Assembly: GCA_026399435.1 (NCBI GenBank)
Contig: JAPLQX010000013.1
Location: forward strand, 1 to 33,322
Direction: 5' to 3'
DNA from: Rhodocyclales bacterium
GTDB taxonomy: Bacteria; Pseudomonadota; Gammaproteobacteria; Burkholderiales; Rhodocyclaceae
DNA: 33,322 nt
In this document: one piece after another, positions 36-31,201 of the stretch
Layout of the letters: each line of letters opens with the position of its first letter
Numbering within the stretch: the stretch's first letter is position 1
Notes under the pieces: model-generated
Told to the model about the DNA's origin: nothing
The model's database searches: none
What the model saw: only the letters and a program-made list of their open reading frames with translations
Translations under genes and position numbers: made by a program

Positions 36-542
36 GTGAAGATCGTTGGTCACCGCAGTCACTCTTGCAACCGTCATCGCGGCGCAGCGCACTGCGGGCG
101 CGCGCTCCAACCGTCGTCGCTTCCGCTGTCGTCAACATCTTCGGCGTCGCTGCCCGTCGCTGAGCGTGTAGCCACCGTGCCTTCGGCGTGGGCAGCCGTG
201 TGGCCTTCCCGTGCCTGTGGTGACAATGAACCCGCCGTGGCTTCGGTAACGTCAGCATCCGCACCCTTGTCACCGCTGCCCGCAGTGCCCGTGCCTTCGT
301 TGGCGCACCGTTGGCTTACCGTCGTCGCGCTTGCATGCCAAAAGCGTTCGGTCTGCGCCGGTGTTCCCGCCGCGCTCCGTCCCATCACCGTGTCGCCAGC
401 GCCGACTCCTGCGCGGACTCATTTTCCCGTGCCCTCGCGTAGTCTCTCGCCCAACCCGGCAGTCGACCCCGTTCCCTTCGGTCACTGGACGCTGCGCGAT
501 AAAGCCGCGCAGCGCCGGTCACTTCTACGTTGGACCCCATAA
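36..542 (+). CDS. unrecognised cassette ORF, 168 codons
   Basis: No family is recognised. The GTG start at 36 has a strong Shine-Dalgarno (AGGAGGG about 9 bases upstream), the main reason to list it. The product is rich in Ser, Pro, Ala, Val and Arg, with one weakly hydrophobic stretch near residues 92-102, and its last 20 or so residues are simply attC read through to a TAA at 540-542. A minus-strand frame (74-388) is equally open, so the cassette may be non-coding or coding on the other strand. It carries copy 1 of the dispersed repeat. Low confidence that a protein is made. Confidence 0.3.
   Translation: MKIVGHRSHSCNRHRGAAHCGRALQPSSLPLSSTSSASLPVAERVATVPSAWAAVWPSRACGDNEPAVASVTSASAPLSPLPAVPVPSLAHRWLTVVALACQKRSVCAGVPAALRPITVSPAPTPARTHFPVPSRSLSPNPAVDPVPFGHWTLRDKAAQRRSLLRWTP
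384..410 (-). repeat. dispersed 27-bp repeat, copy 1 (divergent)
   Basis: On the minus strand the core (386-405) reads TCGGCGCTGGCGACACGGTG, two mismatches from the 20-base consensus. It lies in the first integron cassette. Read on the plus strand, in the frame of the cassette ORF, it gives ITVSPAPTP, close to the VAVSPAPTF encoded by copies 2 and 5. Confidence 0.65.
449..535 (+). other. attC1 integron recombination site (87 bp, long type)
   Basis: Left core GCCCAAC (449-455) matches RYYYAAC; right core GTTGGAC (529-535) matches GTTRRRY. Between them is the stem shared by most attC sites here, with arms GACGCTGCGCG and CGCGCAGCGCC around ATAAAGC. The recombination point is after G529. Together with the site at 2231-2318 it forms a longer subtype carrying an extra GTCGACCCCGTTC segment. 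Confidence 0.88.
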
Positions 543-550
543 AGTCCTCA

Positions 551-1177
551 ATGCTGACTAAGCACTCACCTATCCGCTATTTGGCAATCGCCCTGCTTGG
601 CCACGCATCTTCTGCAAGCGCGCTTGATACGCCCACTGTGCCCGAATACTACGTGGCTGCGGCGATTGCGCAAGCGAGCCAAGTGCCAAAGACTGCCATA
701 AACCAAGAGCGCGCCATGGGCCTTTGCTTTGGTGTCGACTACAACCCACAAGATCGGCAATATCAGCAAGGCTATGCGAGCAGTCTTTCGCCAGAATATG
801 CGGCCGCAGAGTATTTCAAGCTTTACGAAAAGCGAACGGTCGCCGTGCCTGCATCGAGCAATGTTGAATTGGCTGAGCCGCCCAAGCATGGAAAAGTGGT
901 TTATTCCAAGTTCGAAGACGGATCTTTGAATCACCAATACATTCCTGACGTTGGTTACGTGGGAGATGAAAGAATCGTCTTTAAAGTCAACGTCGATCGA
1001 CAAACCGTAAAACTTGTTTACCTTCTAAAAGTAACCAAAGTGACAACCGGTGGCCAGGTATCCGACGATGTCTTTTGCAAGAAGACAGGCACACAATGGA
1101 AAATCTCTCTATCGGGTGGTACTCGGTTGGCGGGGTATGGTGTCCAACCCATCGTTCCAGGGGACGCTGCGCGATGA
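551..1177 (+). CDS. secreted cassette protein with an Ig/cadherin-like segment
   Basis: The frame is open from TTG at 530, but that lies in attC1. ATG at 551 is preferred because it begins a signal peptide (MLTKHSPIRYLAIALLGHASSASA, cleavage probably before LDTP), so the product should be periplasmic or secreted, about 184 residues when mature. The C-terminal half has the pattern PPKHGKVVY...YIPDVGYVGDERIVFKV seen in bacterial Ig/cadherin-like tandem domains, here a single copy. The stop TGA (1175-1177) lies inside attC2, so the last residues DAAR are encoded by the recombination site. Function unknown; the domain suggestion comes from pattern only. Confidence 0.7.
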   Translation: MLTKHSPIRYLAIALLGHASSASALDTPTVPEYYVAAAIAQASQVPKTAINQERAMGLCFGVDYNPQDRQYQQGYASSLSPEYAAAEYFKLYEKRTVAVPASSNVELAEPPKHGKVVYSKFEDGSLNHQYIPDVGYVGDERIVFKVNVDRQTVKLVYLLKVTKVTTGGQVSDDVFCKKTGTQWKISLSGGTRLAGYGVQPIVPGDAAR

Positions 1178-1211
1178 AGCCGCGCAGCGCCCCTGAACTC
1201 AAACGTTGAAC
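1142..1211 (+). other. attC2 integron recombination site (70 bp)
   Basis: Left core GTCCAAC (1142-1148), right core GTTGAAC (1205-1211), both fitting the consensus and nearly complementary to each other. The central stem is the one shared through the array, with apex GATGAAGC. The apex supplies the stop codon of the preceding secreted protein. Confidence 0.9.
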
Positions 1212-1269
1212 TAAACCGCTGACGCGGCGGTGACTCGCGCCACCACCGCGTCAGCGGTTTAGTTCAACG
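1204..1269. repeat. 66-bp near-perfect palindrome between attC2 and attC3
   Basis: Two 29-base arms (1204-1232 and 1241-1269) are complementary except for one pair, around an 8-base loop (ACTCGCGC). The arms begin with the attC2 right core (GTTGAAC) and end with the attC3 left core (GTTCAAC), so the polarity is the reverse of an attC. The cassette from 1206 to 1342 thus holds only this palindrome and attC3 and has no ORF of its own. There is no T-tract to suggest a terminator. Confidence 0.9.
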
Positions 1270-1348
1270 AATAGCGTTTATCCGCCGCCATGACTCTTCG
1301 TGCTCGACTTGCTCTCCCTCAGCGGCGGATAAACGCTATTCGTTGGCC
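1262..1348 (+). other. attC3 integron recombination site (87 bp, outlier type)
   Basis: Left core GTTCAAC (1262-1268), right core GTTGGCC (1342-1348). The arms CGAATAGCGTTTATCCGCCGC and its complement before the right core form a 21-bp perfect stem with a long loop. It shares no stem sequence with the other six sites, so this cassette probably came from a different integron. Confidence 0.9.
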
Positions 1349-1358
1349 GTCGCAAATC

Positions 1359-1760
1359 ATGCGCATCGTTACTATTCTTGCCTCTCTGTTCGTTCTGTCG
1401 CTAGGCGCTTGCGCTGAGCAGAGTGACCTTGAGTTTCATCGAAACGTTGTGGGTACTTGGACAGGGGTTGAAACACGTCCAGGTGTCGAGGTAAGGGGAT
1501 ACGAAACGTTTAAACCAGATGGACAGTTCGTGGTCGTCACTCACATCAAGAAGAATGGTGTAGCGCCTTTTGATGTGCAAACGTTTGGGGAATGGAAAAT
1601 TGACAACGGAATGCTGGTTACAGTAATTACTAAGAGCGATAACGCCGACCTTTCGCCAGTTGGTGACGTGTCGCGGGACAGAATCATCCAGATCACGGCT
1701 AGCACTCTTGAACTGGAGTCTCAGAGCGGGCGAAGACTGTATAGAGAGCGGCAACGATGA
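1359..1760 (+). CDS. cassette-encoded lipoprotein (133 aa)
   Basis: The open frame extends upstream to 1290, through attC3; ATG at 1359, 10 bases past the attC3 core, is chosen because it begins a clear type II signal peptide (MRIVTILASLFVLSLGAC, lipobox LGAC). The mature protein has the feel of a small lipocalin-like or DUF-type domain: VVGTWTG near the start, then GYETFKPDGQFVVV and GEWKIDNGMLVTV, the usual pattern of domains that begin with a W and close a short beta barrel. It should be membrane-anchored and exported. The gene ends two bases before attC4. No function can be given. Confidence 0.75.
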   Translation: MRIVTILASLFVLSLGACAEQSDLEFHRNVVGTWTGVETRPGVEVRGYETFKPDGQFVVVTHIKKNGVAPFDVQTFGEWKIDNGMLVTVITKSDNADLSPVGDVSRDRIIQITASTLELESQSGRRLYRERQR

Positions 1761-1761
1761 C

Positions 1762-1832
1762 GGCTAACCCATCCATCAACACGGACGCTGCGCGATGAAG
1801 CCGCGCAGCGCCGGTTATGTCAGACGTTGGGG
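1762..1832 (+). other. attC4 integron recombination site (71 bp)
   Basis: Left core GGCTAAC (1762-1768) and right core GTTGGGG (1826-1832) each deviate from consensus at one base. The central stem is the common one, apex GATGAAGC. Imperfect cores may make this site less active. Confidence 0.85.
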
Positions 1833-1907
1833 GTCTCCATCCGTACGTCATTGCTCTATAGCCAATCACAAGATTTCTCGCTGCGCTTCTGTTGCGGATT
1901 GCCTCTC

Positions 1908-1934
1908 GTCGCCGTATCGCCAGCGCCGACTTTT
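1908..1934 (-). repeat. dispersed 27-bp repeat, copy 2
   Basis: On the minus strand this is identical over 28 bases (1908-1935) to copy 5 inside dsrJ, 29 kb away; the core TCGGCGCTGGCGATACGGCG is at 1910-1929. It sits in the cassette between attC4 and attC5, upstream of the small membrane protein gene. In one plus-strand frame it gives VAVSPAPTF, as in DsrJ. Confidence 0.9.
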
Positions 1935-1987
1935 GGAACCGCTTGGGCGGAACAGCCGCGCTCTCGCTCTAGCCAGACTGTAAATTT

Positions 1988-2197
1988 ATGTCTACCAATT
2001 CGAAGTGGGCTTCTTTCTTTTTTTGCACCATCATATTTGGCGCAAGCCCTTATCTCTTCATGCTGATAAACCTTCACGTCACTGAAGGCAACTCAGATCT
2101 AAATTACTTCTTTTTCTACATCCTCATTACAGCGCCCGTCGCTTTTATCATTTTGCTTTTCGGCTTGTTCAGGTTTCTTAAGTCACGCCGGGCATGA
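1988..2197 (+). CDS. small two-helix membrane protein in cassette
   Basis: A 69-residue product with two hydrophobic segments (about residues 8-27 and 40-62) joined by a short acidic loop (TEGNSDLN) and ending in a basic tail (FRFLKSRRA), so probably an inner-membrane protein with its C-terminus in the cytoplasm. The ATG at 1988 has no convincing Shine-Dalgarno. AT-rich codon use differs from the chromosomal genes, as expected for a captured cassette. The preceding 155 bases (1833-1987) hold only copy 2 of the dispersed repeat and no convincing gene. No family recognised. Confidence 0.55.
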   Translation: MSTNSKWASFFFCTIIFGASPYLFMLINLHVTEGNSDLNYFFFYILITAPVAFIILLFGLFRFLKSRRA

Positions 2198-2230
2198 CAG
2201 GCCGAGGAACGCTCAAATGCTTAGCCAAAC

Positions 2231-2318
2231 CCCCAACCCTGCGGTCGACCCCGTTCGCTTCGCTCTCTGGACGCTGCGCGATAAAGCCGCGCAGCGCCGG
2301 TCACCTTGAACGTTCGGC
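2231..2318 (+). other. attC5 integron recombination site (88 bp, long type)
   Basis: Left core CCCCAAC (2231-2237), right core GTTCGGC (2312-2318), with one departure from consensus in each. It shares the extra GTCGACCCCGTTC segment with attC1, plus the common central stem (apex ATAAAGC). Confidence 0.87.
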
Positions 2319-2334
2319 GTCTTAAACATCGCGC

Positions 2335-2838
2335 ATGGCTATCGATCCCTCAACGTTCTGGGCTAGTGACTTTGATCACAACTCGCCAATCTCTGTGGAA
2401 TCCTTGAAAGAAGCTGAGCGAGTGCTTAACGTCAAATTTCCCGAAGAGTTGGTCGCCCTGTGGCGTGTTCAGAATGGCGGCTATACACAAGGGTTTGTGT
2501 TTCCTACAGGGCAAAAGACAACTTGGGCTGAAGACCATGTGCCGTTTCTCGAGCTTTTCGGAATTGGCTCGACACAATCACCGTCAGGCTCTCACAACAT
2601 TTTCAACAGCCAGTACATGACTCACGAGTGGGATCTTCCGCCAAAGCAAATTCTTCTCGCTGGCGAGGGCGATTGGTGAATCACTTTGGACTATCGAAAG
2701 TCCGAAACGCCGTGTGTCAGATGGCTCGATGTCGATTCGGGTGAAGATATAGAACTGGCTCCGACATTCAATCAATTCCTGGCAGGGTTGCTACCTGCCG
2801 CCGCCGTGGACGAGCAAACATGCCGTTTAGCTCCGTAA
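2335..2838 (+). pseudogene. SMI1/KNR4 (SUKH) family gene interrupted by in-frame TGA
   Basis: The first 114 codons encode a SUKH-type N-terminus: PISVESLKEAERVLNVKFPEELVALWRVQNGGY is the typical helix and WR..NGG signature. A TGA at 2677-2679 follows GEGDW. The same frame then continues with ITLDYRKSETPCVRWLDVDSGEDI and ...TFNQFLAGLL, the normal C-terminal part, to TAA at 2836-2838. The intact protein would be 167 residues, with Trp (TGG) the likely ancestral codon. SUKH proteins are often immunity proteins against contact-dependent or polymorphic toxins. The TGA is probably a nonsense mutation; sequencing error is possible. Confidence 0.8.
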
Positions 2839-2839
2839 C

Positions 2840-2909
2840 GCCGAACCCATCATTCCACCGGACGCTGCGCGATGAAGCCGCGCAGCGCCGGTGATTTCAA
2901 ACGTTCGAC
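2840..2909 (+). other. attC6 integron recombination site (70 bp)
   Basis: Left core GCCGAAC (2840-2846), right core GTTCGAC (2903-2909), with the common central stem and apex GATGAAGC. It begins one base after the restored stop of the SUKH frame. Confidence 0.88.
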
Positions 2910-2939
2910 CCCACATTCTCGCGAATCTACAGAGTGTTG

Positions 2940-2986
2940 TTGTGCATACAATAAACATTGACGCGCCAGCTATTTGTGCATACACT
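2940..2986 (+). promoter_or_regulatory. brnTA promoter with two 11-bp direct repeats
   Basis: A sigma70-like promoter is visible: TTGACG (2958-2963), a 17-base spacer and TACACT (2981-2986). The sequence TTGTGCATACA occurs twice, at 2940-2950 and 2974-2984, 34 bases apart; the second copy overlaps the -10 box. This is where an autorepressing antitoxin would bind. The brnT ATG at 2994 lies about where transcription should begin, so the mRNA may be leaderless. Operator role is inferred. Confidence 0.65.
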
Positions 2987-2993
2987 CTAGCCC

Positions 2994-3272
2994 ATGAAAG
3001 TCGACTTTGATCCGACCAAGAACGAGAGAAACATCAAAGAGCGCCAGCTTTCGTTCGACCGAGTGGCAGAAGTCGATTTCAATACTGCACTGGTGTTTCC
3101 GGACACCCGAAAGTCATATGGCGAAACCCGTTTCATCGCACTGTGCTACCTGGATCGCCGGCTGCATGTGCTGTGCTTTACCGAGACCGAGACAGGCATT
3201 CGGGTAATCAGCTTCCGTAAAGCAAATACGAGAGAGGCAAATAGACATGGCAAGCCGCAAACCATTGACTGA
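2994..3272 (+). CDS. brnT: BrnT-family ribonuclease toxin
   Basis: A 92-residue protein with the BrnT pattern: MKVDFDPTKNERNIKERQLSF at the N-terminus, FPDTRKSYGETRFIALCYLDRRLHVLCFTE in the middle, and the closing IRVISFRKANTREANRH typical of this RelE-fold toxin family. BrnT toxins cleave RNA and stop growth until bound by BrnA. Toxin first, antitoxin second, with a 26-base overlap, is the usual brnTA order. Carriage in an integron cassette with its own promoter fits the known role of toxin-antitoxin cassettes in stabilising arrays. The catalytic basic residues appear to be present. Confidence 0.9.
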   Translation: MKVDFDPTKNERNIKERQLSFDRVAEVDFNTALVFPDTRKSYGETRFIALCYLDRRLHVLCFTETETGIRVISFRKANTREANRHGKPQTID

Positions 3273-3522
3273 CACGCACGGCGAGGTCCGCGAACTAACC
3301 GCCGAAGATATGGCGAAATTTAGGTCGGCCGCGGAAGTATTGCCGTCATCCCTAAGAAAGAAACTAGGAGTGCGCGGCCCTCAGAAATCACCCACCAAAG
3401 AGCGCATCACCATTCGCTTGTCGAGAGAAGTGGTTGAGCAATTTCGCGAAAGTGGCGAGGGGTGGCAAACGCGCGTGGATGCGGCCCTGCGCGAGTGGCT
3501 CAAAAATCATTCTCCGGCATAG
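3247..3522 (+). CDS. brnA: BrnA-family antitoxin
   Basis: A 91-residue protein whose C-terminal half matches the BrnA antitoxin type: RITIRLSREVVEQFRESGEGWQTRVDAALREWL, a ribbon-helix-helix DNA-binding segment with the conserved GWQTRVDAAL. The N-terminal half would bind and neutralise BrnT. ATG at 3247 lies within the end of brnT, so translation is probably coupled. By analogy with characterised brnTA modules it should repress its own promoter, and the paired TTGTGCATACA sequences upstream are candidate sites. The gene ends 24 bases before attC7. Confidence 0.9.
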   Translation: MASRKPLTDTHGEVRELTAEDMAKFRSAAEVLPSSLRKKLGVRGPQKSPTKERITIRLSREVVEQFRESGEGWQTRVDAALREWLKNHSPA

Positions 3523-3546
3523 GCCATTGCCTCGTTCGCACGCGGG

Positions 3547-3616
3547 GTCGAACCCATCATTCCACCGGACGCTGCGCGATAAAGCCGCGCAGCGCCGGTG
3601 AATTCAGACGTTCGGC
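3547..3616 (+). other. attC7 integron recombination site (70 bp), last in the array
   Basis: Left core GTCGAAC (3547-3553), right core GTTCGGC (3610-3616), common central stem with apex ATAAAGC. It closes the brnTA cassette. No site of this type is found further right. Confidence 0.88.
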
Positions 3617-3641
3617 GTCATAATCCACACACCATCTAATC

Positions 3642-4877: not shown

Positions 4878-4995
4878 CAATGACGCGTAGTTTCAACATT
4901 GAAGTGCAACAAGTCTCAGGACGCATTCCCGGTCCACCTGTGCCTATTCACGCTTTGCGTTATGCACGGCAGGTGTTTCCTGAAAGGAGCGACAA

Positions 4996-5394: not shown

Positions 5395-5407
5395 CGGGCA
5401 TTTCAGC

Positions 5408-5887: not shown

Positions 5888-5900
5888 GGATTCCAGGATC

Positions 5901-6785: not shown

Positions 6786-6828
6786 GCTTCGCTGACAAAG
6801 AGCCCATCGTGTCGAGGTGTCCTGTCTG

Positions 6829-10066: not shown

Positions 10067-13000
10067 ATGCCTACGTCAATCATCAAGAAAATATTCTCGT
10101 CGTCGCTGCTCGAACCAGGAAGCGCGGGCCAGAAGGCGAAGCCGGTGAAGTACCCCGGTGTGCGCGATGCCGTCGACGGCAATACCGCCGTCATCCACGT
10201 CGAGCGCGAGGCCTCCGACGCCGCCGGCGCCTACCCCATCACGCCATCGACGCAGATGGGCGAATACTGGGCCGAGGAAGTCGCCGCCGGCCACCTGAAT
10301 ATTTCCGACAAGCCGCTGATTTTCATCGAGCCCGAATCCGAGCATGCCGCCGCCGGCGTCACCGCCGGCATGTCGATGACCGGTCTGCGCGCCGTCAATT
10401 TCTCGTCGGGGCAGGGCGTCGCCTTCATGCATGAGTCGCTCTACGCAGCGGTCGGCAAGCGCCTGCCGTATGTGCTCAACATGGGCTGCCGCGCGATCAC
10501 CAAGGCTTCGCTCAATGTGCATGCCGGCCACGACGACTACCACTGCGTCGATGACACCGGCTTCATCCAGGTGATGGCGAAGAGCGCCACCGAAGCCGCC
10601 GACCTGAACCTGATCGCGCGCAAGGTGGCCGAGCTGTCGCTGACGCCGGCCATCATCGGCCAGGACGGCTTTCTGACCACGCACCTGATCGAGTCGGCGC
10701 TGTTGCCGGAGCGCGAACTGGTGGCCGAATACCTCGGCAAGCCGGACGACCTGATCGACACGCCGACACCGGCGCAGGAAATGCTGTTCGGGCCGAAGCG
10801 CCGCCGCGTGCCGGCGATCTGGGACGTGGATACCCCGCTGGTATCGGGCACGGTGCAGAACCAGGATGCCTACATGCAGGCTACCGCCGGTCAGCGCCCG
10901 TATTTCTTCGACCACATCGAGGCCATCACCAACACCTGCATGGACGAGTATGCCGCGCTGACCGGCCGCCGCTACCAGCGCGTTGCTGCCTTCAAGGCCG
11001 AGGATGCCGACTACCTGATTGTCGGCATGGGCAGCATGATCGTCCAGGCCGAGGCGGTGGCGGACTATCTGCGCGAAACGCGCAAGCTCAAGGTCGGCGT
11101 GGTCAACCTGACGATGTTCCGTCCCTTCCCCGGCGACCTGCTGGGCCACGTGCTGCGCGGCAAGAAGGGCGTGGCGGTGCTGGAGCGCACCGACCAGCCG
11201 CTGGCCGAAGACCTGCCGCTGATGCGCGAAGTGCGGGCCGTGCTGACCAAGTGCATCGAGAACGGCATGGCCGGGGCGGATGGCGTCAAGCCGTATCCCG
11301 ACTACGCCAGCTATTCCACGGCGGCCGACATGCCGCGCCTGTATTCGGGCTGCTACGGCCTCGGCTCGCGCGACCTGCAACCCGAGGCGCTGATCGGCAC
11401 GGTGGAGAACATGCTGCCCGAGGGCACGCAGCGCAAGTTCTTCTATCTCTCGATCGACTTCGCCCGCGACCCGCTGAATCCGAAGGACGAAGTGCATCAG
11501 CAGGACATCGCCGACAAATATCCGCGGATCCGCGAAATGGGCGTACGCGGCTCCGAGAATCCCAACCTTTTGCCGAAAGGCGCGATCACCGTGCGCATGC
11601 ATTCGGTCGGCGGCTGGGGCGCCATCACCACCGGCAAGAACCTGGCGATGACCCTGTTCGAGCTGCTCGGCTGGGACATCAAGGCCAATCCGAAATACGG
11701 CTCGGAGAAGAAGGGCCAGCCGACCACCTACTACCTGTCCGCGGCACCGGAACCGATCCGCATCAACTGCGAGTACGTCTATGTCGATGTCGTGCTCTCG
11801 CCCGATCCGGTGGTGTTCGGCCACAGCAATCCTCTGTCCGGCCTCAAGAAGGGCGGCTTCTTCATCATCCAGTCGAACCTGGGCAAGGAGACCTGGGCCA
11901 GCTTCCCGCTCTGGGCGCAGAAGTTCATCGTCGACAACGAGATCCGCGTCTACTACCTCGACGCCTTCCAGATCGCCCGCGACGAAGCCGGCGCAGCCGA
12001 GCTGCAGTTGCGCATGCAGGGCATTGCCTTCCAGGGAGCCTTCTTCGCCGCCAGCCCGCTGATGCAGAACGCCGGACTGACCGAGGAAGCGTTGTTCACC
12101 GCGATCGAGGACCAGTTGCAGGCCAAGTTCGGCGGCAAGGGCGCGCGCGTGGTGGCCGACAACCTGCGCGTGGTGCGCCGCGGCTTTACCGAGCTGACGG
12201 AAATCACCGACAAGGAGGTGGGCGCCACGCGCAAGCGCTTCGCCAAGCAGGATGCCGGCCTGCCCATCATGCTGCGGCAGCTGCCGGCGGGTGACGGCAA
12301 GACGGCCGACATCCACCGCTTCTGGGAGCAGACCGGCCATTTCTATCTGACCGGCAAGGGGAACGACAACCTGGTCGATCCCTTCATCGGCGCCTCGTTG
12401 CTGCCGGCCGCTACCGGCGTTTTCCGCGACATGACGGGCATCCGCTTCGAGCACCCGGTGTGGATTGCCGAAAACTGCACGGCCTGCGGCAACTGCTATG
12501 TCGAGTGCCCGGACTCGGCGATTCCCGGCCTGGTCAGCTCGATTCCGGACATCTTCAACGCCGCCGTCAATCGCATCGAAACCTCCGGCACGCCGACGCG
12601 CTTCCTGCGCCGTGCGGTGCGCTCCGCCGAGAAGAAGCTGCGGGCGCTGATCGACCGCAACGGGGGTGCCGTGCGTCCGCTGATCGATATCGCCATCGAC
12701 GAGGTGATCGCCGAGGCGCCGGACGCGGACCGCGGCGGCCTCGCCGCCGAGTTCACTCAATTGCAGATCCAGCTCGGCGGCTTCCAGTTCGGCAGCACCA
12801 AGCCCTACTGGACGCAGAAGGAGAAGAAAGCCAAGGGCAGCGGCGGACTTTTCTCGATCACCGTCAATCCCTATACCTGCAAGGGCTGCAAGCTGTGCGT
12901 CACGGTCTGCGAGGACAACGCGCTGGAAATGGTGACGCAGACCGACGAATCGGTGGATCGCCTGCGCCGCGACTGGAGCACATGGCTCGAGCTGCCGACC

Positions 13001-15010
13001 ACGCCGAAGGAATACAGCCGCATCGACAGCCTCGACGAGAAAATCGGCGCGCTGGAAACCCTGCTGCTCGACAAGAACAACTACAACTCGATGAACTGCG
13101 GCGACGGCGCCTGCCTCGGCTGCGGCGAGAAGACCGCGATCCACCTGTTCACCTCGACGGTGACGGCGCTGATGCAGCCGCGGGTCAAGGCCTTCATCGA
13201 CAGGCTCGACGACCTGATCGTGCGGCTGGAACAGCACATGCGCGTCAAGCTTGCCTCGGCGGTCGACCTGACCGACACCGGTGCCGTGCTGCGCGCCGTC
13301 GATGCGACCGGCCAGCATGACCTGACCCTGTCCAACTTCGCCGCCAGACTCAATGCCGACAAGCCCTCGCAACTGCTCGATCCGGCCTGGGTGAAGAACA
13401 CCGCGCAACTACTGGAGAAGCTCAAGGACCTGAAGTGGCGCTACGTCGAGGGACCGAGCAAGCGCGGGCGCGCCGAGATGGGCATCGTCAATTCCACCGG
13501 CTGCACCTCGGTGTGGGGTTCCACTTATCCGTTCAGCCCCTATCCTTTCCCCTGGACCTCGCATCTCTTCCAGGATTCGCCCTCGGTGGCGATGGGCATC
13601 TTCGAAGGCCACATGGCAAAGATGGCCGATGGCTTCAAGGCCGTGCGCATGGCCGAGATGGAACTGGCCGGCGACTATCTGCCCGATCGCGACGATGACT
13701 TCTTCCGCCGCTTCACCTGGAACAAGTTCTCCGCCGACGAGTGGCTGCTGTGCCCGCCGGTGGTATCCCTCGGCGGCGACGGCGCCATGTACGACATCGG
13801 CTTCCAGAATCTTTCGCGGGCGCTGATGTCGGGCATGCCGATAAAGGTTCTGGTGGTCGATACGCAGGTGTATTCCAACACCGGCGGCCAGGCCTGCACC
13901 TCGGGCTTCATCGGCCAGGTCTCCGACATGGCCCCGTTCGGCGCCGCCTCGCGCGGCAAGCAGGAGACGCGCAAGGAAATCTCGCTGATCGGCATGGCGC
14001 ACCGCACCTCGTACGTCATGTCCGGCACCATCGCCCACGTCAATCACCTGATCGAGAGCTATGTCGATGGCTTGAACAGTCGGCGTCCGGCGCTGTTCAA
14101 CATCTACGCCGTCTGTCCGCCGGAACACGGCGTCGGCGACGACCGCAGCGTGGACCAGAGCAAGCTGGCGGTGGAAGGCCGCGCCTATCCGCTGTTCCGC
14201 TTCGATCCCGATGCCGGCACCACGTTCAGGGAGTGCGTCAGTCTCGAAGGCAACCCGTCGCTCGATACCGACTGGCCGACCTACAGCCTCAAGTACATCG
14301 ATGACGACGGCGTCGAGCAGAGCATGACGCTGCCGATGACCTTCGCCGATTTCGCCGCCACCGAGGCGCGCTTCCTCAAGCAGTTCAGGAAGGCGCCGCC
14401 GGATACCTGGAACGACCAGATGGTCTTGCTGGCCGATTTCCTGAAGCTCGACAAGGACGAGCGCGAAGGGCATTTTCCCTACATCTGGGCACTAGACAAG
14501 AAGAACCGTTTGACGCGCCTGCTGGTTACCGAGGAGCTCGTCCGTTCCAGCGAGGAACGGCTGAATTTCTGGCGCCAGCTGCGCGGCCTCGCCGGCCTCG
14601 ACGCCGCTTCGTTGGACAGTGCCGAAGTGACGGAGCGGGTGCGCGCCGAGCTGCTGGCGAAGATTTCCGCCAGCCTCGGGCTTGGCGGAATGGCCGACGT
14701 CGGCCCGGCTGCAGGACTCGGCGCTGGCGATACGGCGGCGGCAGGCAGCTCTGGCGGCGACTACGAGGCGGTCTGGGTCGAGACGCCCGAATGCACGGCC
14801 TGCGACGAGTGCATCAACCTGGCGCCGAAGACTTTCGCCTACAACGACCAGAAGCTTGCCGTCGTCATCAATCCGAAGGGAGCGAAGTTCGCCGACATCG
14901 TCAAGGCCGCCGAGAAGTGCACGGCAGGCTGCATCCATCCCGGCACGCCCTGGAACATGAGCGAACCCGGTGTCGAAAAATTGATGGTGCGGGCAGCGAA
15001 ATACAACTGA
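10067..15010 (+). CDS. nifJ: giant pyruvate:ferredoxin (flavodoxin) oxidoreductase with C-terminal ferredoxin domain
   Basis: A 1647-residue single-chain NifJ-type enzyme (usual length about 1170-1200). It oxidises pyruvate to acetyl-CoA and CO2 and reduces low-potential ferredoxin or flavodoxin. Order: 2-oxoacid oxidoreductase N-domain (AYPITPST near residue 60), gamma domain (SVGGWGA about 510), two 4Fe-4S motifs at C804 (CTACGNCYVECP) and C938 (CKGCKLCVTVC), proximal-cluster Cys at 1016 (GACLGCG), and TPP motif GGDGAMYDIG (about 1235). Extra sequence lies between the two ferredoxin motifs, after C1016 and at the C-terminus. Residues 1549-1558 are encoded by the dispersed repeat and lead to an added ferredoxin domain (C1576, 1579, 1582; C1618, C1622). 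Another 2-oxoacid substrate cannot be excluded. Confidence 0.93.
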   Translation: MPTSIIKKIFSSSLLEPGSAGQKAKPVKYPGVRDAVDGNTAVIHVEREASDAAGAYPITPSTQMGEYWAEEVAAGHLNISDKPLIFIEPESEHAAAGVTAGMSMTGLRAVNFSSGQGVAFMHESLYAAVGKRLPYVLNMGCRAITKASLNVHAGHDDYHCVDDTGFIQVMAKSATEAADLNLIARKVAELSLTPAIIGQDGFLTTHLIESALLPERELVAEYLGKPDDLIDTPTPAQEMLFGPKRRRVPAIWDVDTPLVSGTVQNQDAYMQATAGQRPYFFDHIEAITNTCMDEYAALTGRRYQRVAAFKAEDADYLIVGMGSMIVQAEAVADYLRETRKLKVGVVNLTMFRPFPGDLLGHVLRGKKGVAVLERTDQPLAEDLPLMREVRAVLTKCIENGMAGADGVKPYPDYASYSTAADMPRLYSGCYGLGSRDLQPEALIGTVENMLPEGTQRKFFYLSIDFARDPLNPKDEVHQQDIADKYPRIREMGVRGSENPNLLPKGAITVRMHSVGGWGAITTGKNLAMTLFELLGWDIKANPKYGSEKKGQPTTYYLSAAPEPIRINCEYVYVDVVLSPDPVVFGHSNPLSGLKKGGFFIIQSNLGKETWASFPLWAQKFIVDNEIRVYYLDAFQIARDEAGAAELQLRMQGIAFQGAFFAASPLMQNAGLTEEALFTAIEDQLQAKFGGKGARVVADNLRVVRRGFTELTEITDKEVGATRKRFAKQDAGLPIMLRQLPAGDGKTADIHRFWEQTGHFYLTGKGNDNLVDPFIGASLLPAATGVFRDMTGIRFEHPVWIAENCTACGNCYVECPDSAIPGLVSSIPDIFNAAVNRIETSGTPTRFLRRAVRSAEKKLRALIDRNGGAVRPLIDIAIDEVIAEAPDADRGGLAAEFTQLQIQLGGFQFGSTKPYWTQKEKKAKGSGGLFSITVNPYTCKGCKLCVTVCEDNALEMVTQTDESVDRLRRDWSTWLELPTTPKEYSRIDSLDEKIGALETLLLDKNNYNSMNCGDGACLGCGEKTAIHLFTSTVTALMQPRVKAFIDRLDDLIVRLEQHMRVKLASAVDLTDTGAVLRAVDATGQHDLTLSNFAARLNADKPSQLLDPAWVKNTAQLLEKLKDLKWRYVEGPSKRGRAEMGIVNSTGCTSVWGSTYPFSPYPFPWTSHLFQDSPSVAMGIFEGHMAKMADGFKAVRMAEMELAGDYLPDRDDDFFRRFTWNKFSADEWLLCPPVVSLGGDGAMYDIGFQNLSRALMSGMPIKVLVVDTQVYSNTGGQACTSGFIGQVSDMAPFGAASRGKQETRKEISLIGMAHRTSYVMSGTIAHVNHLIESYVDGLNSRRPALFNIYAVCPPEHGVGDDRSVDQSKLAVEGRAYPLFRFDPDAGTTFRECVSLEGNPSLDTDWPTYSLKYIDDDGVEQSMTLPMTFADFAATEARFLKQFRKAPPDTWNDQMVLLADFLKLDKDEREGHFPYIWALDKKNRLTRLLVTEELVRSSEERLNFWRQLRGLAGLDAASLDSAEVTERVRAELLAKISASLGLGGMADVGPAAGLGAGDTAAAGSSGGDYEAVWVETPECTACDECINLAPKTFAYNDQKLAVVINPKGAKFADIVKAAEKCTAGCIHPGTPWNMSEPGVEKLMVRAAKYN
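14713..14739 (+). repeat. dispersed 27-bp repeat, copy 3, inside nifJ
   Basis: The 20-base core TCGGCGCTGGCGATACGGCG is exact at 14718-14737. Within nifJ it encodes GLGAGDTAA (residues 1549-1558), in the Gly/Ala-rich linker between the enzyme body and the fused ferredoxin domain. It uses the same frame as copy 4 in rnfG. Confidence 0.88.
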
Positions 15011-16358: not shown

Positions 16359-17488
16359 GTACCCCCTTGCTCGAAATCATTTCGGCGCCGCATCTCAAGG
16401 GGTCGCGCAGTGTCGAGATGATCATGCGCCACGTGGTCTGGTCGCTGCTGCCGATCTGCGCCTTCTACGTTCTCCAGTACGGCATTTCGGCGCTGGCATC
16501 CATCATTGTCGTGACTGCGACCTGCCTCTACGCCGAGCGCGCCTTTGTCCGCACCGGTACGCAGGCGGGCAACCTCGGCGACTATTCCGCAGTGATCACC
16601 GGCCTGTTGCTGGCGCTGACGCTGCCGCCGGGCTTCCCGTTGTGGATGGGCGCGGTAGCCGGTCTGGTCGCGATCGCCCTGGGCAAGGCGCTGTTCGGCG
16701 GCATCGGCTTCAACGTTTTCAATCCGGCGCTGGTCGGTCGTGCTTTCGTCCAGGCAGCCTTTCCGACCTCCATTGCCACTTACACCCCGTCATTCCTCGG
16801 TGGCCGTTTCACCGAGTTCATTCCATCCTCGCTGGCCTGGCCGCTGATGACGCCGGCCGACGCCGCGCTGTGGCTCAAGCTGAAGAACCTCGATGCCCTG
16901 GCCGGCGCCACGCCGCTGGCGAAGTGGAAGTTCGACGGCGTGGTGGCGAATGCCGTCGAGCTGCTGACTTCGCTGTCCGGCCACATGGCGGTCGGTCCGG
17001 CGCCGGCCCTGGTCCTGCTCTGCGGGCTCTATCTCGCGGCGCGCCGCTTCATGGACTGGCGCATCCCGATCGCCATCCTCGGCAGCGCGGCACTGACCGC
17101 CTGGCTGCTGTATGCCATCGATCCCTCGCGCTACCCGAATCCCTTCTTCATGCTGTTCTCGGGCGGTCTGATCCTCGGCGCGGTGTACATGGCGACCGAC
17201 ATGGTGACCTCGCCGGTGACGCCCGCCGGCATGTGGGTCTATGGCGCGCTGATCGGCCTGCTGACCGTGGTGATCCGCTACTACAGCGGCCTGCCGGAAG
17301 GCGTCATGTATGCCATCCTGATTGCGAACGCCGCTTCGCCGCTGATCGAGAAAGTCACGCAGCCAGTCACCTTCGGCCGCGGCGTTCCGGGACGCAGCCG
17401 CGAGGGCACGCCGGGTTATGTGTCGCGCACCGATGCCAACGCTGCGATACCGAAGAAGCGCTTCCTGCGCAACAAGCCAAAGAAATGA
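16355..17488 (+). CDS. rnfD: RnfD, FMN-carrying membrane subunit
   Basis: A 377-residue NqrB/RnfD-family integral membrane protein with about nine or ten transmembrane segments. The covalent FMN site fits AGAT at residues 183-186 (Thr186), close to the position known in Vibrio RnfD. GFNVFNPALVGRAF and MATDMVTSPVTPAG are family signatures. It is part of the ion-translocating core. ATG at 16355 overlaps the rnfC stop in ATGA, indicating translational coupling. Confidence 0.95.
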   Translation: MSTPLLEIISAPHLKGSRSVEMIMRHVVWSLLPICAFYVLQYGISALASIIVVTATCLYAERAFVRTGTQAGNLGDYSAVITGLLLALTLPPGFPLWMGAVAGLVAIALGKALFGGIGFNVFNPALVGRAFVQAAFPTSIATYTPSFLGGRFTEFIPSSLAWPLMTPADAALWLKLKNLDALAGATPLAKWKFDGVVANAVELLTSLSGHMAVGPAPALVLLCGLYLAARRFMDWRIPIAILGSAALTAWLLYAIDPSRYPNPFFMLFSGGLILGAVYMATDMVTSPVTPAGMWVYGALIGLLTVVIRYYSGLPEGVMYAILIANAASPLIEKVTQPVTFGRGVPGRSREGTPGYVSRTDANAAIPKKRFLRNKPKK

Positions 17489-18225
17489 ATACGCCTCACA
17501 CCCACCACGCAGTTCTTCCAGCCGGCCGCCCTGCCCACGGGATACCGCCGCCGCAGGTCACGCCTACGACCGGGATGGTGCGCACTCTGGGCCTTGTCTC
17601 GGCCATCTGCGGCCTGATCATCGTCGGCGCCTACCAGAGCACCTACGACGCCGTCGCTGCCAACAAGCGCATCGCCACCGAGCGCGCGGTGTTCAAGGTG
17701 ATCCCGGCGGCCAAGTCGATCGCAGAATATGTGGCGCTGCCCACTGGCGGCGTCGAGCCAAGAGTCGGCGCTGGCGACATGGCGACTGTGCCGGGCGCGG
17801 TCAAGTTTTTCGCCGCCTATGACGAGAGCGGCAAGCTTGCCGGCATCGCCGCCGAAGGTGCGGCCAAGGGTTACGCCGACACGGTGCGTATCATGTTCGG
17901 CTACTCGCCGGGGTGCCAGTGCGTGGTCGGCATCGGTGTCGTCAACATGCGCGAAACGCCGGGCATCGGCGACAAGATCATCACCGACAAGGACTTCCTT
18001 GCCAACTTCAAGGCCCTCGATGCCAAACTCAGCGCCGATCTGTCGATGCTGGCGAACGCGGTCAAGACAGTCAAGCATGGCACCAAGGTCAACCCCTGGC
18101 AGATCGATGCCATCGCCGGCGCCACGATTACCTCGCGTGCCGTCGGCAAGGCCATCGACGATTCGGCGCAGGCGCTGCTGCCGCGCCTGGTTCCCAACCT
18201 CGACAAACTCGCGGGCAAATCATGA
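17485..18225 (+). CDS. rnfG: RnfG, FMN-carrying periplasmic subunit
   Basis: A 246-residue subunit with one N-terminal transmembrane helix (about 31-50) and an FMN-binding domain. The covalent FMN threonine is Thr214 in AGATITS. ETPGIGDKI (157-165) is the second family motif. Residues 93-101 (RVGAGDMAT) are encoded by the dispersed repeat, in the stretch between the membrane anchor and the FMN domain. CQC at 144-146 is unusual for the family. It overlaps the rnfD stop by ATGA. Confidence 0.94.
   Translation: MNTPHTHHAVLPAGRPAHGIPPPQVTPTTGMVRTLGLVSAICGLIIVGAYQSTYDAVAANKRIATERAVFKVIPAAKSIAEYVALPTGGVEPRVGAGDMATVPGAVKFFAAYDESGKLAGIAAEGAAKGYADTVRIMFGYSPGCQCVVGIGVVNMRETPGIGDKIITDKDFLANFKALDAKLSADLSMLANAVKTVKHGTKVNPWQIDAIAGATITSRAVGKAIDDSAQALLPRLVPNLDKLAGKS
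17760..17786 (+). repeat. dispersed 27-bp repeat, copy 4, inside rnfG
   Basis: Three mismatches in 27 from copies 2 and 5; the core at 17765-17784 reads TCGGCGCTGGCGACATGGCG. It encodes VGAGDMA, in the same frame as copy 3. It lies in a part of RnfG between recognisable domains. Confidence 0.8.
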
Positions 18226-26021: not shown

Positions 26022-26074
26022 AAGGAATGATTCGGGCGTTGCGAAAGCGGCACCTTACCACAAGCCGCCGTTCA

Positions 26075-26090
26075 GCCCGGTGCGCCGGGC
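26075..26090 (-). terminator. hairpin between cobA and emrA
   Basis: GCCCGG-TGCG-CCGGGC, a 6-bp GC-rich stem 42 bases after the cobA stop (reading the minus strand). It could end the dsr/cobA transcript before emrA. There is no T-tract. Confidence 0.35.
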
Positions 26091-26106
26091 ACTGCGGTTG
26101 ACGACT

Positions 26107-26133
26107 TTCGCCGTACCGTCCGCGCCGACTCTT
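26107..26133 (-). repeat. dispersed 27-bp repeat, copy 6 (divergent)
   Basis: Minus-strand core (26109-26128) TCGGCGCGGACGGTACGGCG, three mismatches in 20 and five in 27 from copy 2. It begins at the last base of the cobA stop codon, so it is non-coding here. Confidence 0.55.
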
Positions 26134-26900: not shown

Positions 26901-26959
26901 GGACGCGAAATATACCCGACAGAGCTCCGGATATTCGAGCGCAGCGAGCAAATTAGTCG

Positions 26960-26990
26960 CCTCCCCCGGGAGGGGGAGGGCGGGAGGGGG
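26960..26990 (-). promoter_or_regulatory. GC-rich palindrome and G-quadruplex motif between dsrR and cobA
   Basis: CCTCCCCC-GGGA-GGGGGAGG (26960-26979) is a perfect 8-bp hairpin. On the plus strand five G-runs of three or more lie within 26968-26990, which fits a G-quadruplex; the dsr transcript would carry the C-rich complement. It may terminate or attenuate transcription into cobA. Function inferred. Confidence 0.45.
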
Positions 26991-27020
26991 TGTCGCTTAT
27001 GCCGGTTTTGCTTGTGTCCA

Positions 27021-27359
27021 TCAGGAACAACCTCCACCGCAGCCACCGCAGCTCTTCGCGGCCGGCGGCGCGGTGCAGCCGCCGCGAAAGATGAACTGGA
27101 ATTCGCCGGGCTGCACCTCGCTGAAATCCAGCGTGGTGTTCTCCAGCAGGGGCTGGCTGAGCGGCGAGATCAGGACCTCGACGCCATGAGCGTCGAGCAC
27201 CAGGTCGTCTTCGCGCTCCTCGTCGAAGCCCATGCCATAGACCAGTTCGCCGTCGTGCTCGTCGAGCTTGGCGGCCACGCGCAGCATGCGCTGGCGGTCG
27301 GGTTGTTCGGCGGCGGCGCGGGCGATCTGCTCGGCGGCAGTCGGGGTCATGGCGAACAT
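27021..27359 (-). CDS. dsrR: DsrR, A-type scaffold-like protein of the dsr operon
   Basis: A 112-residue IscA/ErpA-fold protein. MFAMTPTAAEQIARAA, YGMGFDEEREDD and HGVEVLISPLSQPLLENTTLDF are typical of DsrR. The first two Cys positions of true A-type iron-sulfur carriers are absent, as known for DsrR, which acts on dsr expression after transcription in Allochromatium. Unlike that, this one has a C-terminal tail with four Cys (GGC...SCGGCGGGCS). It overlaps dsrN by 13 bases. Confidence 0.88.
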   Translation of the reverse strand: MFAMTPTAAEQIARAAAEQPDRQRMLRVAAKLDEHDGELVYGMGFDEEREDDLVLDAHGVEVLISPLSQPLLENTTLDFSEVQPGEFQFIFRGGCTAPPAAKSCGGCGGGCS

Positions 27360-28798: not shown

Positions 28799-28821
28799 GG
28801 CGCCCGCGCCGGGCAGCGGAC

Positions 28822-30021
28822 TCAATCCGCGATGCTGCCGGCGGCTTCCAGCTTGGCGCGGTCGTCGTGCGGCATGAAATTCAGCGCGCGTGCGCCAATC
28901 ACGGTAATGGTGAAGGCGATGCCCAAGCCGCCGAGCGACAGCAGAATTTCGGGCAGGCTGGCCGTGTAGTGGTCAACTGCGCCATCGAAGAAACTGCTCT
29001 TGACGTCATAGCCGGGGAAGATGTCAAGCGGGAAGGCCTGGCCGCCAATGATGAACACATAGAGATGGAAATAGGCACCGACGATGACGAGGAGAGCGGC
29101 GACATTGACCCAGAGGGTCCGTTTGCAGGTGGCCGGATTGAACAGCAGGGCCAGCGGCAGCAGGCTGCCAATCAGGACCTGGCCAATCCAGAACATGCCG
29201 GCGAACTCGCTATCGAAGAGGATGAAATATTCGAAGGCGATGTTCTTGGCGAAATAGGCGTTGGCCAGGTGCAGCACGGCGGTCAAGTACAGCACGGCGG
29301 CAATAAAGGTGGCCAGCAGGTTCTTCATGCGCTGGTGCACCAGCGGCGGCAGCGCCTCGCAGCGTGCGGCATACATTGACGCCTGCACCGGGATGAATAC
29401 GGCAAGGCCCCAGGCGAAGGACATGACGATGAACATCGGCGCCAGCAGGGCGGTGCCATAAGCCTGGCGCGCGACGAGGAAGGCGAAGATGGATCCGGTA
29501 CCGGAAGTGAGCACGACGCGCCAGACGAAGGTGGCCAGACCGGCGGCCTTCGAGTACGGGTTCATGCGCCGTTCCATCAGGGTCCACAGATAGACCGCGA
29601 CCAGGCCGTAGAAGACCGGGTAGAGAATCATGTTCCAGCCGAAGACCGAAGTCAGGTTGACATGCGTCGCCGCAACGATCGCGCGGTCGGCGCGACCCAG
29701 GTCGAGCATGATGACCGCAAGGCCGCCGCTCATCATGGCGATGCCAAGCAGACCGGACAGCGGCGCGCGCGACTTGTAGAGCGCCCGGCCGAAGACCGAA
29801 CCCATCGAGGCGACATTGAGCACGCCCGAAGCGGCCACGATCAGGAAGATCGCAACGACATGGGGCAGACCCCAGACGATCTGGTTGTTCATGCCGGTGA
29901 CCACGTGGCCTGAATGTTCCATGTAGAGCGCCGCGGCAACGCCGAGGGCTGATACCGCGCCACCAATTGCTGCAAACAGGTAGAAGAGGCCTTCTTCGTT
30001 TCGGGAGTTGGGTGTGAACAT
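28822..30021 (-). CDS. dsrP: DsrP, NrfD-like quinone-interacting membrane subunit
   Basis: ATG 30021 gives 399 residues with about ten transmembrane helices of the NrfD/PsrC family. Motifs include GWNMILYPVFYGLVAVYLW and VFIPVQASMYAARCEALPPLVHQR. With DsrO (periplasmic) and DsrJ it exchanges electrons with the quinone pool as part of DsrMKJOP. The conserved Glu of the quinone pocket cannot be assigned with certainty. It begins two bases after the dsrO stop, so translation is coupled. Confidence 0.93.
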   Translation of the reverse strand: MFTPNSRNEEGLFYLFAAIGGAVSALGVAAALYMEHSGHVVTGMNNQIVWGLPHVVAIFLIVAASGVLNVASMGSVFGRALYKSRAPLSGLLGIAMMSGGLAVIMLDLGRADRAIVAATHVNLTSVFGWNMILYPVFYGLVAVYLWTLMERRMNPYSKAAGLATFVWRVVLTSGTGSIFAFLVARQAYGTALLAPMFIVMSFAWGLAVFIPVQASMYAARCEALPPLVHQRMKNLLATFIAAVLYLTAVLHLANAYFAKNIAFEYFILFDSEFAGMFWIGQVLIGSLLPLALLFNPATCKRTLWVNVAALLVIVGAYFHLYVFIIGGQAFPLDIFPGYDVKSSFFDGAVDHYTASLPEILLSLGGLGIAFTITVIGARALNFMPHDDRAKLEAAGSIAD

Positions 30022-30023
30022 GA

Positions 30024-30791
30024 TCAGATTCCCTGGTAGCGCACGCCGGGATTCAAGCGCAGATCGGCACGAACCTGGGTGGTCGGCACGCTGGCGATGC
30101 GCTTGGCGATGTCGCTGGCGGGGTCGTTGAGGTCGCCGAACACCATGGCGCCTTCGGGGCAGGATTCGACGCAGGCCGGTTGCTGGCCCTTGTCGACGCG
30201 ATGCACGCAGAGCGTGCAGCTTTCGACGCAGCCCTGGCCGCGCGGAACTTCCGGGTTCTGCTGGGTCAGCGGCGTATGGACGAATGAGCGCGCCTTGTAG
30301 GGACAGGCCATCATGCAGTAGCGGCAGCCGATGCAGGTGTGGCGGTCGACCAGCACGATGCCGTCGGCGCGCTTCATCGAGGCGCCGGTGGGGCAGACGT
30401 CCACGCAGGGCGGCTCGGCGCAGTGCTGGCACATCATCGGCAGTTGCGTGACGCGGCCGTCGCGGCGATCGACCAGCTCGATCTTGCGTATCCATTGCGA
30501 GTTCTGGCGCGGATCGGGGAGTTTCTCGCTGACGCCGTTTTCGGTGTGGCAGGCGTCGATGCACTTGGTGCAGCCGGGTGCGCATTTTCCGGCGTCGATC
30601 AGCAGACCCCAGCGCACCGCGGGCGAGGCGGCGGCGCCGGCTTTGCGCGCGTCGGCGGCGTTTGCCTCGCCGACCGCCATCAGATGCCGGCCGGGGGCGA
30701 TGACCGTGAAGCCGAGGCCGGCTACACCGGCGCCGGCAGCGGCGATGAAGGCGCGACGCGGGTTGCTGTCGGGGGATTGGGGGGCGGTCAT
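30024..30791 (-). CDS. dsrO: DsrO, periplasmic iron-sulfur subunit of DsrMKJOP
   Basis: ATG 30791 gives 255 residues. A Tat signal is present: SNPRRAFIAAAGAGVAGLGF, twin-arginine at about 11-12. Four Cys groups of the NrfC/PsrB type follow: CAPGCTKCIDACH, CQHCAEPPCVDVCPTGA, CIGCRYCMMACPYKAR and CVESCTLCVHRVDKG...CVESCPEGAM. The first group (C-x3-C-x2-C-x3-C) is the DsrO variant. It transfers electrons between DsrJ and DsrP. It overlaps dsrJ by ATGA. Confidence 0.93.
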   Translation of the reverse strand: MTAPQSPDSNPRRAFIAAAGAGVAGLGFTVIAPGRHLMAVGEANAADARKAGAAASPAVRWGLLIDAGKCAPGCTKCIDACHTENGVSEKLPDPRQNSQWIRKIELVDRRDGRVTQLPMMCQHCAEPPCVDVCPTGASMKRADGIVLVDRHTCIGCRYCMMACPYKARSFVHTPLTQQNPEVPRGQGCVESCTLCVHRVDKGQQPACVESCPEGAMVFGDLNDPASDIAKRIASVPTTQVRADLRLNPGVRYQGI

Positions 30792-31201
30792 GGTTTCACT
30801 CCCGTCGCCTTGAAGCCGGCCTTGGGCTGGTGACATTCGAAGCAGTCGAGTTTCACGGCCGCATAGGAGTGGCAGCTTTCGCAGAAGTCGCCCCTGCCGA
30901 GCACGGAGCCGGTCTTCTTGCTGGCATGGCACTCGATGCAGGCGTTGAGCGAGGCCGGTTCGCCGCGGATGCCGGAGCGCAATGTCCGGTCACGCTGGTG
31001 CTTGAGCATCTCCATGTGGTTGCGGCGCATTTCCTCCGCCGGGGCGATGCACTTGCCGCCGCTCTCCGTCGTCATGTTCGGGACCGGTGTGCGCTGGGGA
31101 TGCGCTTCGCCGCTGTGCGCAAAAGTCGGCGCTGGCGATACGGCGACCACCGCGGCGATCATCAGCAGAAAGCGGACCAGGCGCAGCACAGTATTACTCA
31201 C
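30788..31201 (-). CDS. dsrJ: DsrJ, triheme cytochrome c of DsrMKJOP
   Basis: GTG at 31201 (137 residues) is chosen because it overlaps the dsrL stop by eight bases and starts just before a signal/anchor helix (LRLVRFLLMIAAVVAV). Residues 19-27 (VAVSPAPTF), the end of that signal region, are encoded by the dispersed repeat. Heme sites: CIECH (88-92), CESCH (107-111) and CFECH (120-124). The conserved C51 in GGKCIAPAEEMRRNHM is the Cys that ligates the unusual His/Cys heme in DsrJ. A GTG four codons later would still allow export. Confidence 0.92.
   Translation of the reverse strand: MSNTVLRLVRFLLMIAAVVAVSPAPTFAHSGEAHPQRTPVPNMTTESGGKCIAPAEEMRRNHMEMLKHQRDRTLRSGIRGEPASLNACIECHASKKTGSVLGRGDFCESCHSYAAVKLDCFECHQPKAGFKATGVKP
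31121..31147 (+). repeat. dispersed 27-bp repeat, copy 5, inside dsrJ
   Basis: Identical to copy 2 over 28 bases; core TCGGCGCTGGCGATACGGCG at 31126-31145. It lies antisense to dsrJ and encodes VAVSPAPTF at the C-region of the signal peptide, directly before a likely cleavage site after FA. Confidence 0.92.

Follow-up and report, generated by a model that had tools for sequence, protein, structure and literature searches.

A long bipartite DNA motif of Sulfuritalea and a few related genera with the likeness of an uptake sequence

Sequence-specific DNA uptake has been described for two families, the Pasteurellaceae and the Neisseriaceae (PMC5031613), and ComP is the receptor of the DNA uptake sequence (DUS) (PMC12616744). 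Uptake sequences are said to originate by point mutation, to be evenly spaced without orientation bias, to be in excess in noncoding DNA, and to spread by an uptake-biased molecular drive (PMC1939737); they are the most overrepresented repeats and lie in permissive regions (PMC3630211). Their atypical distribution has been used to find islands, and an integrative and conjugative element of commensal Neisseria has a DUS in its attP (PMC7371117). Here, we analyzed a 33,322-nucleotide stretch of a Rhodocyclales bacterium (GCA_026399435.1, contig JAPLQX010000013.1, positions 1 to 33,322, forward strand; the window), in which a preliminary description had noticed six copies of a 27-bp dispersed repeat, and we followed this motif through 121 genomes. 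The motif shows the testable properties of uptake sequences, noncoding excess aside, and we lean, with some reserve, toward reading it as an independently evolved tag of the uptake-sequence type in Sulfuritalea and a few related genera.

A logo built from 54 copies in 433 kb of the window's own genome (G000; 2.88 Mb in 57 contigs, 81% complete) gives the unit AARAGTCGGCGCTGGCG-NN-ACGGCGAY, with sharp edges and unrelated flanks; because the copies were selected on core positions, the logo is unbiased only at its outer bases (AARAG and the last two). Judged from its sequence, the motif is bipartite with an unusually long, 22-bp core, whose consensus, by inspection, holds a stop codon in no frame. 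Abundance was counted with a 20-bp core at up to 3 mismatches, the same pattern read backwards serving as the control. The preliminary description had let its repeat stand or fall with a genome-wide excess, and the excess is there: G000 holds 345 core copies (164 on the plus strand and 181 on the minus strand) against 4 for the reversed pattern, and the six copies of the window are a tiny sample of this set. Among 11-mers, AGTCGGCGCTG shows the largest excess, with 109 occurrences against 4.45 expected in a sample of G002 and 44 against 2.6 in a sample of G000. G002, which we take to be S. hydrogenivorans sk43H, is a single contig of 3,802,648 bp, of which 1.6 of 3.8 Mb were analyzed with rough gene calls; it carries about one copy per 5.9 kb.

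In the window, the six 20-bp cores lie where they had first been placed (386-405 minus, 1910-1929 minus, 14718-14737 plus, 17765-17784 plus, 26109-26128 minus, and 31126-31145 plus) and have, in that order, 2, 0, 0, 2, 3, and 0 mismatches. Chance was rejected as their source, with 0.03 copies expected and none of 100 dinucleotide shuffles giving six, and a wider scan of the window with the 27-mer at up to 8 mismatches added no further copy. The full copies are as follows.
384..410, minus strand: copy with 2 mismatches in the 20-bp core, in an integron-like cassette array
1908..1934, minus strand: copy with an exact core, lying between the attC-like repeats 1765-1841 and 2251-2327 of the cassette array
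14713..14739, plus strand: copy with an exact core, in frame as LGAGDTA near the C terminus of a pyruvate:ferredoxin oxidoreductase (PFOR)-type protein
17760..17786, plus strand: copy with 2 mismatches, in frame as RVGAGDMA in an RnfG-type protein
26107..26133, minus strand: copy with 3 mismatches, beginning on the final stop-codon base of a minus-strand open reading frame (ORF), 26133-26951
31121..31147, plus strand: copy with an exact core, read as AVSPAPTF on the minus strand in a DsrJ-like ORF (30788-31258, minus strand)

The 28-base identity reported between two of these copies is real (1908-1935 versus 31120-31147), the pair being, by position, copies 2 and 6 rather than 2 and 5. The imperfect inverted repeat of the motif ends likewise exists, as a weak, short, and interrupted single-strand stem: two exact copies fold as single strands with the stem GTCG.CG / CG.CGAC at -6.8 kcal/mol (3 of 200 shuffles as good), and a third copy, 17760-17786, folds no better than many shuffles (28/200). 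Copy 14713-14739 looks as if it sits in a protein linker, and copy 31121-31147 appears to fall in a putative signal peptide of the DsrJ-like ORF, which matches NF038038 (E 8.6e-19, 68 bits) under the curated cutoff of 100.

The genus, most likely Sulfuritalea, consists of freshwater sulfur bacteria, and each of its 31 genomes is positive, with 50 to 712 copies against 0 to 5 for the reversed control. Five of 42 other genomes of the family are raised (G037, 619; G067, 652; G048, 185; G052, 39; G043, 30), the remaining 37 having 0 to 16 copies and 48 genomes of the order 0 to 14, near the controls (0 to 8). With the tighter pattern AGTCGGCGCTGGCGNNACGGCG, at up to 1 mismatch, the five raised genomes gave 495, 532, 62, 15, and 0 copies in the same order, the reversed control being 0 in all of them; G043, with 30 matches to the 20-mer and none to the tighter bipartite pattern, perhaps carries a variant motif. 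The exact 28-mer is present in 19 stretches of named genomes, filed under Sulfuritalea (5), Rhodocyclales (3), Rhodocyclaceae (2), "beta proteobacterium" (4), one "Burkholderiaceae" metagenome-assembled genome (4), and a "Gammaproteobacteria" metagenome-assembled genome (1). Within the genus, density is low in G017, G022, and G026. Because G017 and G022 are sisters and G026 stands elsewhere in a tree of one block (3418 columns, motif columns included, no support values), motif density seems to have dropped at least twice. A separate motif dialect in motif-poor G017 was rejected, there being no outstanding word in 318 kb. Contigs filed as viral (IMG/VR) also carry the motif, in at least 120 stretches, 80 of which (L260-L339) were retrieved.

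At the few sites that can be compared, the motif, to judge from the alignments, grew by point substitution in place. In moeA (a Pfam assignment), all six motif-free outgroup genera align without a gap, and the moeA copy therefore arose by substitution; here and in an ABC transporter gene (likewise by Pfam) relatives differ by few point changes. Of 14 genus rows, 12 carry the motif at the RnfG-type site; the two subthreshold rows have no gap inside it, and G022 (RVGGGDGALAPG) and G000 (RVGAGDMATVPG) align ungapped. The PFOR-type site, near the protein C terminus, has the motif in 20 of 24 genus rows despite diverged flanks, and a site in a Lys/Ala-rich protein has it in 17 of 24 covered rows. 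Of the sites that could be matched between the G000 and G002 samples, 13 of 16 and 15 of 22 were gapless (in part the same sites viewed from either side); six of the 10 gapped comparisons involve the longer variants described below, and none has a clean motif-sized gap. Intermediate mismatch numbers are seen among orthologous sites, and in G017 comparable sites have 4 to 10 mismatches, 6 of 11 being gapless. The preliminary description had raised a mobile repeat like the Rickettsia palindromic element (RPE), and had asked whether orthologues show clean 24- or 27-bp gaps. A clean 24- to 27-bp insertion was rejected for the compared sites, and the mobile option is unsupported for the short form; one site, taken up below, does lack about 30 bp in G026.

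On codon evidence, the DNA word itself is kept, beyond the encoded peptide, at the two sites tested; the sites were ascertained in G000 and codons tallied in the remaining rows, which are related and not independent. At the PFOR site, Ala is GCT in 16 of 21 rows, compared with 14 of 262 flanking Ala codons, and Thr is ACG in 19 of 20, compared with 59 of 119 in the flanks. The RnfG-type site gives the same picture (GCT in 9 of 12 versus 10 of 234; ACG in 10 of 10 versus 12 of 29). Reading frames were counted with a second gene caller, the first having put a false gene over moeA; even the second missed at least three Pfam-confirmed copy-bearing genes (moeA, the ABC transporter gene, and rnfG). 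By these calls, 211 of 326 copies (272 from G002 and 54 from G000) lie wholly within genes, 111 are noncoding, and 4 are partial. The genic copies favor some frames over others: they read KVGAGDTA in 98 cases, two antisense frames in 54 and 27, another sense frame in 22, and each of the remaining two frames, rich in Arg, Trp, and Tyr, in 5. Selection on the peptide KVGAGDTA with the DNA motif as a by-product, to which the 98 copies in that frame might point, is so improbable that we rejected it, given 113 of 211 genic copies in other frames or on the opposite strand, some copies that are noncoding (e.g., 26107-26133 of the window), and synonymous positions that are fixed, including the rare codon GCT.

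Along the chromosome the copies show no orientation bias, the 272 copies in 1.6 Mb of G002 dividing into 139 on the plus strand and 133 on the minus strand. This stretch is probably one replichore, because its GC skew is positive in 14 of 16 bins and it starts with ORFs that we read as dnaN- and gyrB-like. Gaps shorter than 500 bp are scarce (6 versus 22.1 expected), and in 283 five-kb windows with a GC content of at least 0.60, holding 265 copies, dispersion is 0.72 (p 0.00014). Low-GC windows are copy-poor, with 7 copies in 37 windows against the 265 in 283. The largest gap spans 62.9 kb at a GC content of 0.598 with 0 copies, the expected number of such gaps being 0.006. This desert (L182-L186; G002:C1:458,493-521,427) consists mostly of a low-GC island, about 60 kb long, that carries a DDE transposase and splits a comM-type gene, whose N-terminal piece lies at 521129-522019 and whose C-terminal piece lies near 459951-460520, both on the minus strand and both with Mg-chelatase/ChlI domains. 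comM is a hot spot for islands. In the one island and the low-GC windows examined, the motif is depleted in recently acquired DNA.

Among the options first listed for the repeat, that of an uptake or protein-binding signal is thus the one that gains, from the scarce close spacing, the lack of strand bias, and growth by substitution, and also from DNA-level maintenance, genus-wide sharing, and absence from the acquired island. If the motif is an uptake tag, tagged DNA would be preferred by a receptor on the cell surface, probably a minor type IV pilin like ComP of Neisseria; tagged fragments from relatives would be taken up and recombined; and biased uptake would spread the mutations that create tags (molecular drive), chiefly at positions left free by coding constraint. 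The motif would, in addition, be an insertion site for small hairpin elements. A broader proposal, which we put forward only tentatively, is that recognition of self-DNA by a tag arose independently in free-living freshwater sulfur-oxidizing betaproteobacteria, with a long bipartite tag abundant enough that hairpin elements, and perhaps RAYT (REP-associated tyrosine transposase; REP, repetitive extragenic palindrome) genes, land on it and ride biased uptake.

A number of observations weigh against the uptake reading. The receptor was not found, only the ComEC, DprA, and GspH families having been counted, and genes of the ComEC, DprA, and GspH/FimT types do not part motif-rich from motif-poor genomes. 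ComEC is found in 30 of the 31 genus genomes, that without a match (G030) being 79% complete; DprA is above the cutoff in 31 of 33 genomes, and GspH is present in 32 of 33. The two genomes with no DprA match above the cutoff are motif-rich, G005 (712 copies, 99% complete) having one weak match and G001 (83% complete) none, and motif-poor G017 retains both ComEC and DprA. The presence of these genes, which are nearly universal, was rejected as the cause of motif-poor genomes. Literature joining Sulfuritalea and natural transformation was searched for and none was found, which is no proof of absence from print.

Spacing and composition add to these points. Over the 1.6 Mb, the raw coefficient of variation of spacing is 0.996 versus 0.995 for random placement, and evenness appears only after removal of the largest gaps or in GC-masked windows: with the largest gap dropped in data and simulations alike, the coefficient is 0.83 versus 0.96 (p 0.002), and with the three largest dropped it is 0.76 versus 0.92 (0/4000). 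Density climbs with GC in the other windows too, from 12.6 to 25.6 copies per 100 kb, and part of the low-GC scarcity may be composition. Tight pairs such as those of Neisseria are lacking in an 800-kb sample, where the closest copies are 259 bp apart. The noncoding share, 93 of 272 G002 copies in 15 to 17% of the sequence, is to be read with the copy-bearing genes that the callers missed. The motif occurs on viral-filed contigs, where the density of additional copies is about 4-fold below that of host DNA sampled in the same way, and two copies lie within the window's cassette array. The excess of the motif next to RAYT-type genes, described below, is not predicted by the uptake model. Finally, one site lacks about 30 bp in G026 (L124) relative to G005 (L111); the gap is imprecise and falls within the 5' portion of a G000 ORF call whose start is uncertain.

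The strongest rival explanation is that the motif is the binding site of a chromosome-organizing, replication, or segregation protein spread over the core chromosome. The scarce close spacing, the absence from the island, and the DNA-level conservation would all suit such a site, and Karlin et al. once interpreted evenly spaced uptake sequences along these lines (PMC1939737). We nevertheless consider this explanation unlikely, since the copies show no orientation bias along what is likely a single replichore, many lie within genes, and the spaces between divergent genes hold no excess of them (11 in 44 kb, compared with 24 in 37 kb of convergent gaps, on imperfect gene calls). The low density in G017, G022, and G026 and the patchy spread among genera would, moreover, require a dispensable system.

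Slightly less likely again is a very small mobile repeat of the kind of the small dispersed repeats (SDRs) of Nostoc, RPE, or REPIN-like elements, of which the 27-bp form would be a minimal or internally deleted version. The sharp edges, unrelated flanks, and weak stem of exact copies fit this idea, as do the ~30 bp absent at the G026 site and the longer variants that keep the motif ends. By inspection, these carry, among others, a 21-bp insert with the hairpin TCCCgNAGGGA or longer-stemmed inserts of roughly 36 and 60 bp. Hairpin elements of at least five kinds are nested in the motif (L036 12099 and 14181, indexed on the motif strand; L044 14313; L042 8900; G002 200621; and others), and variants differ at one site between species, three different forms being found there in G000, G005, and G010. 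Similar hairpins also occur outside the motif (G002 near 274,489, counted on the minus strand, and 327,886), and, from the nested variants, it looks as if small hairpin elements insert into the motif.

A link with RAYT-type genes would speak for mobility as well: 7 of 9 and 8 of 18 such genes have the motif within 250 bp downstream, the 18 including two cut at a stop codon, one doubtful match, and many orthologues. The background is 28 of 311 genes with mostly noncoding downstream DNA and 125 of 1299 for all called G002 genes. RAYT-type (Y1_Tnp) genes of about 250 amino acids with the motif 46 to 220 bp past the stop codon were seen in L386-L389, L391, L392, L394, L396, L397, L400, L404, L405, and L410. 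Set against mobility of the short form are the motif-free orthologues that are gapless in conserved genes, the lack of clean 24- to 27-bp gaps between G000 and G002, the scarce close spacing, the absence from the island, and the maintenance, rather than decay, of copies at the two tested sites. Furthermore, no Y1_Tnp match was found in motif-rich G001, G007, G012, G019, and G067, some of which are incomplete (G019 is 99% complete, G007 90%, and the others 83 to 86%), and five were found in motif-poor G022; RAYT was therefore rejected as the force that upholds the short motif.

Single-stranded DNA copied from a source element, in the manner of a retron or a diversity-generating retroelement, or gene conversion, might instead overwrite partly matching sites and so spread both the motif and the hairpin variants, the short form not being inserted. 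This would explain both the gapless gain at partly matching sites and the whole hairpin inserts swapped in, and the conversion-spread option of the preliminary description may bear on the hairpin variants that the motif harbors. We regard such overwriting as improbable; it predicts neither scarce close spacing nor island absence beyond recency, and orthologues show intermediate mismatch numbers.

The remaining features of the window that bear on its copies are given here.
10067..15010, plus strand: pyruvate:ferredoxin oxidoreductase-type ORF carrying copy 14713-14739
16642..18225, plus strand: RnfG-type ORF carrying copy 17760-17786
469..3625, plus strand: six attC-like repeats of an integron-like cassette array, the context of copies 1 and 2

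What we take to be attC repeats and an integron at 469-3625 comes with cassettes that include a SUKH/SMI1 protein and a BrnT-type toxin, and near-perfect inverted repeats lie behind an attC-like repeat at 1204-1269 and 1265-1345 (29 nt, 97%; 24 nt, 100%). Positions 26133-33170 resemble a dsr cluster, with DsrJ- and DsrP-like matches under the curated cutoffs and what we read as a DsrL-like oxidoreductase. A PHROGs scan of three window ORFs gave one match, of unknown function.

The reason for sequence-specific uptake is an old dispute. If the motif is indeed an uptake tag, it would provide an independent case in a free-living environmental genus that is represented here by 31 genomes, both motif-rich and motif-poor, and includes a cultured species, so that the origin and loss of tags would become directly testable; it would also give these genomes an intrinsic marker of foreign islands. 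Literature searches for uptake sequences in the Rhodocyclaceae or Rhodocyclales found none, those for S. hydrogenivorans with repeats gave nothing relevant by title among the papers listed, and those with two pieces of the motif sequence returned only papers unrelated by title, none of which proves absence from print.

Several described systems share features with the motif. Its nested hairpin variants resemble REPs, and RAYT-type genes often lie just upstream of copies. Unlike REP and REPIN elements, however, the short motif has only a weak stem, is largely genic, and is abundant where a RAYT-type gene was not found. RPE likewise stands in frame inside genes but consists of far longer palindromic inserts, whereas the motif is no insert at the tested in-gene sites. 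Nostoc SDRs reportedly span a size range of 21 to 27 nt (Elhai 2008). One of them, SDR5, is inserted precisely inside the highly iterated HIP1 (PMC4390886), and this resembles the hairpins in the motif; SDRs are described as mobile, whereas the short motif was gained without insertion at the tested sites.

The closest likeness is to DUS and to the uptake signal sequence (USS). The extended USS measures about 30 bp. The motif, with its 22-bp core, is longer than the 12-nt DUS and the 9-nt USS (PMC5031613) and is sparser, which is a further point against the uptake reading. It is, moreover, an unrelated bipartite sequence with a stop-free consensus, in which no tight inverted pairs were seen, and by eye its logo and top words differ from the 12-nt DUS of Neisseriaceae given in PMC5031613. 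What it has in common with DUS and USS is many copies (hundreds to thousands) on both strands in genes and noncoding DNA, which arise by point mutation, are evenly spaced, and are missing from acquired islands, together with lineage specificity (PMC1939737, PMC3630211, PMC5031613); like DUS (PMC7371117), it appears to serve mobile elements as an integration site. The hosts, by comparison, belong to a different family and are free-living sulfur bacteria.

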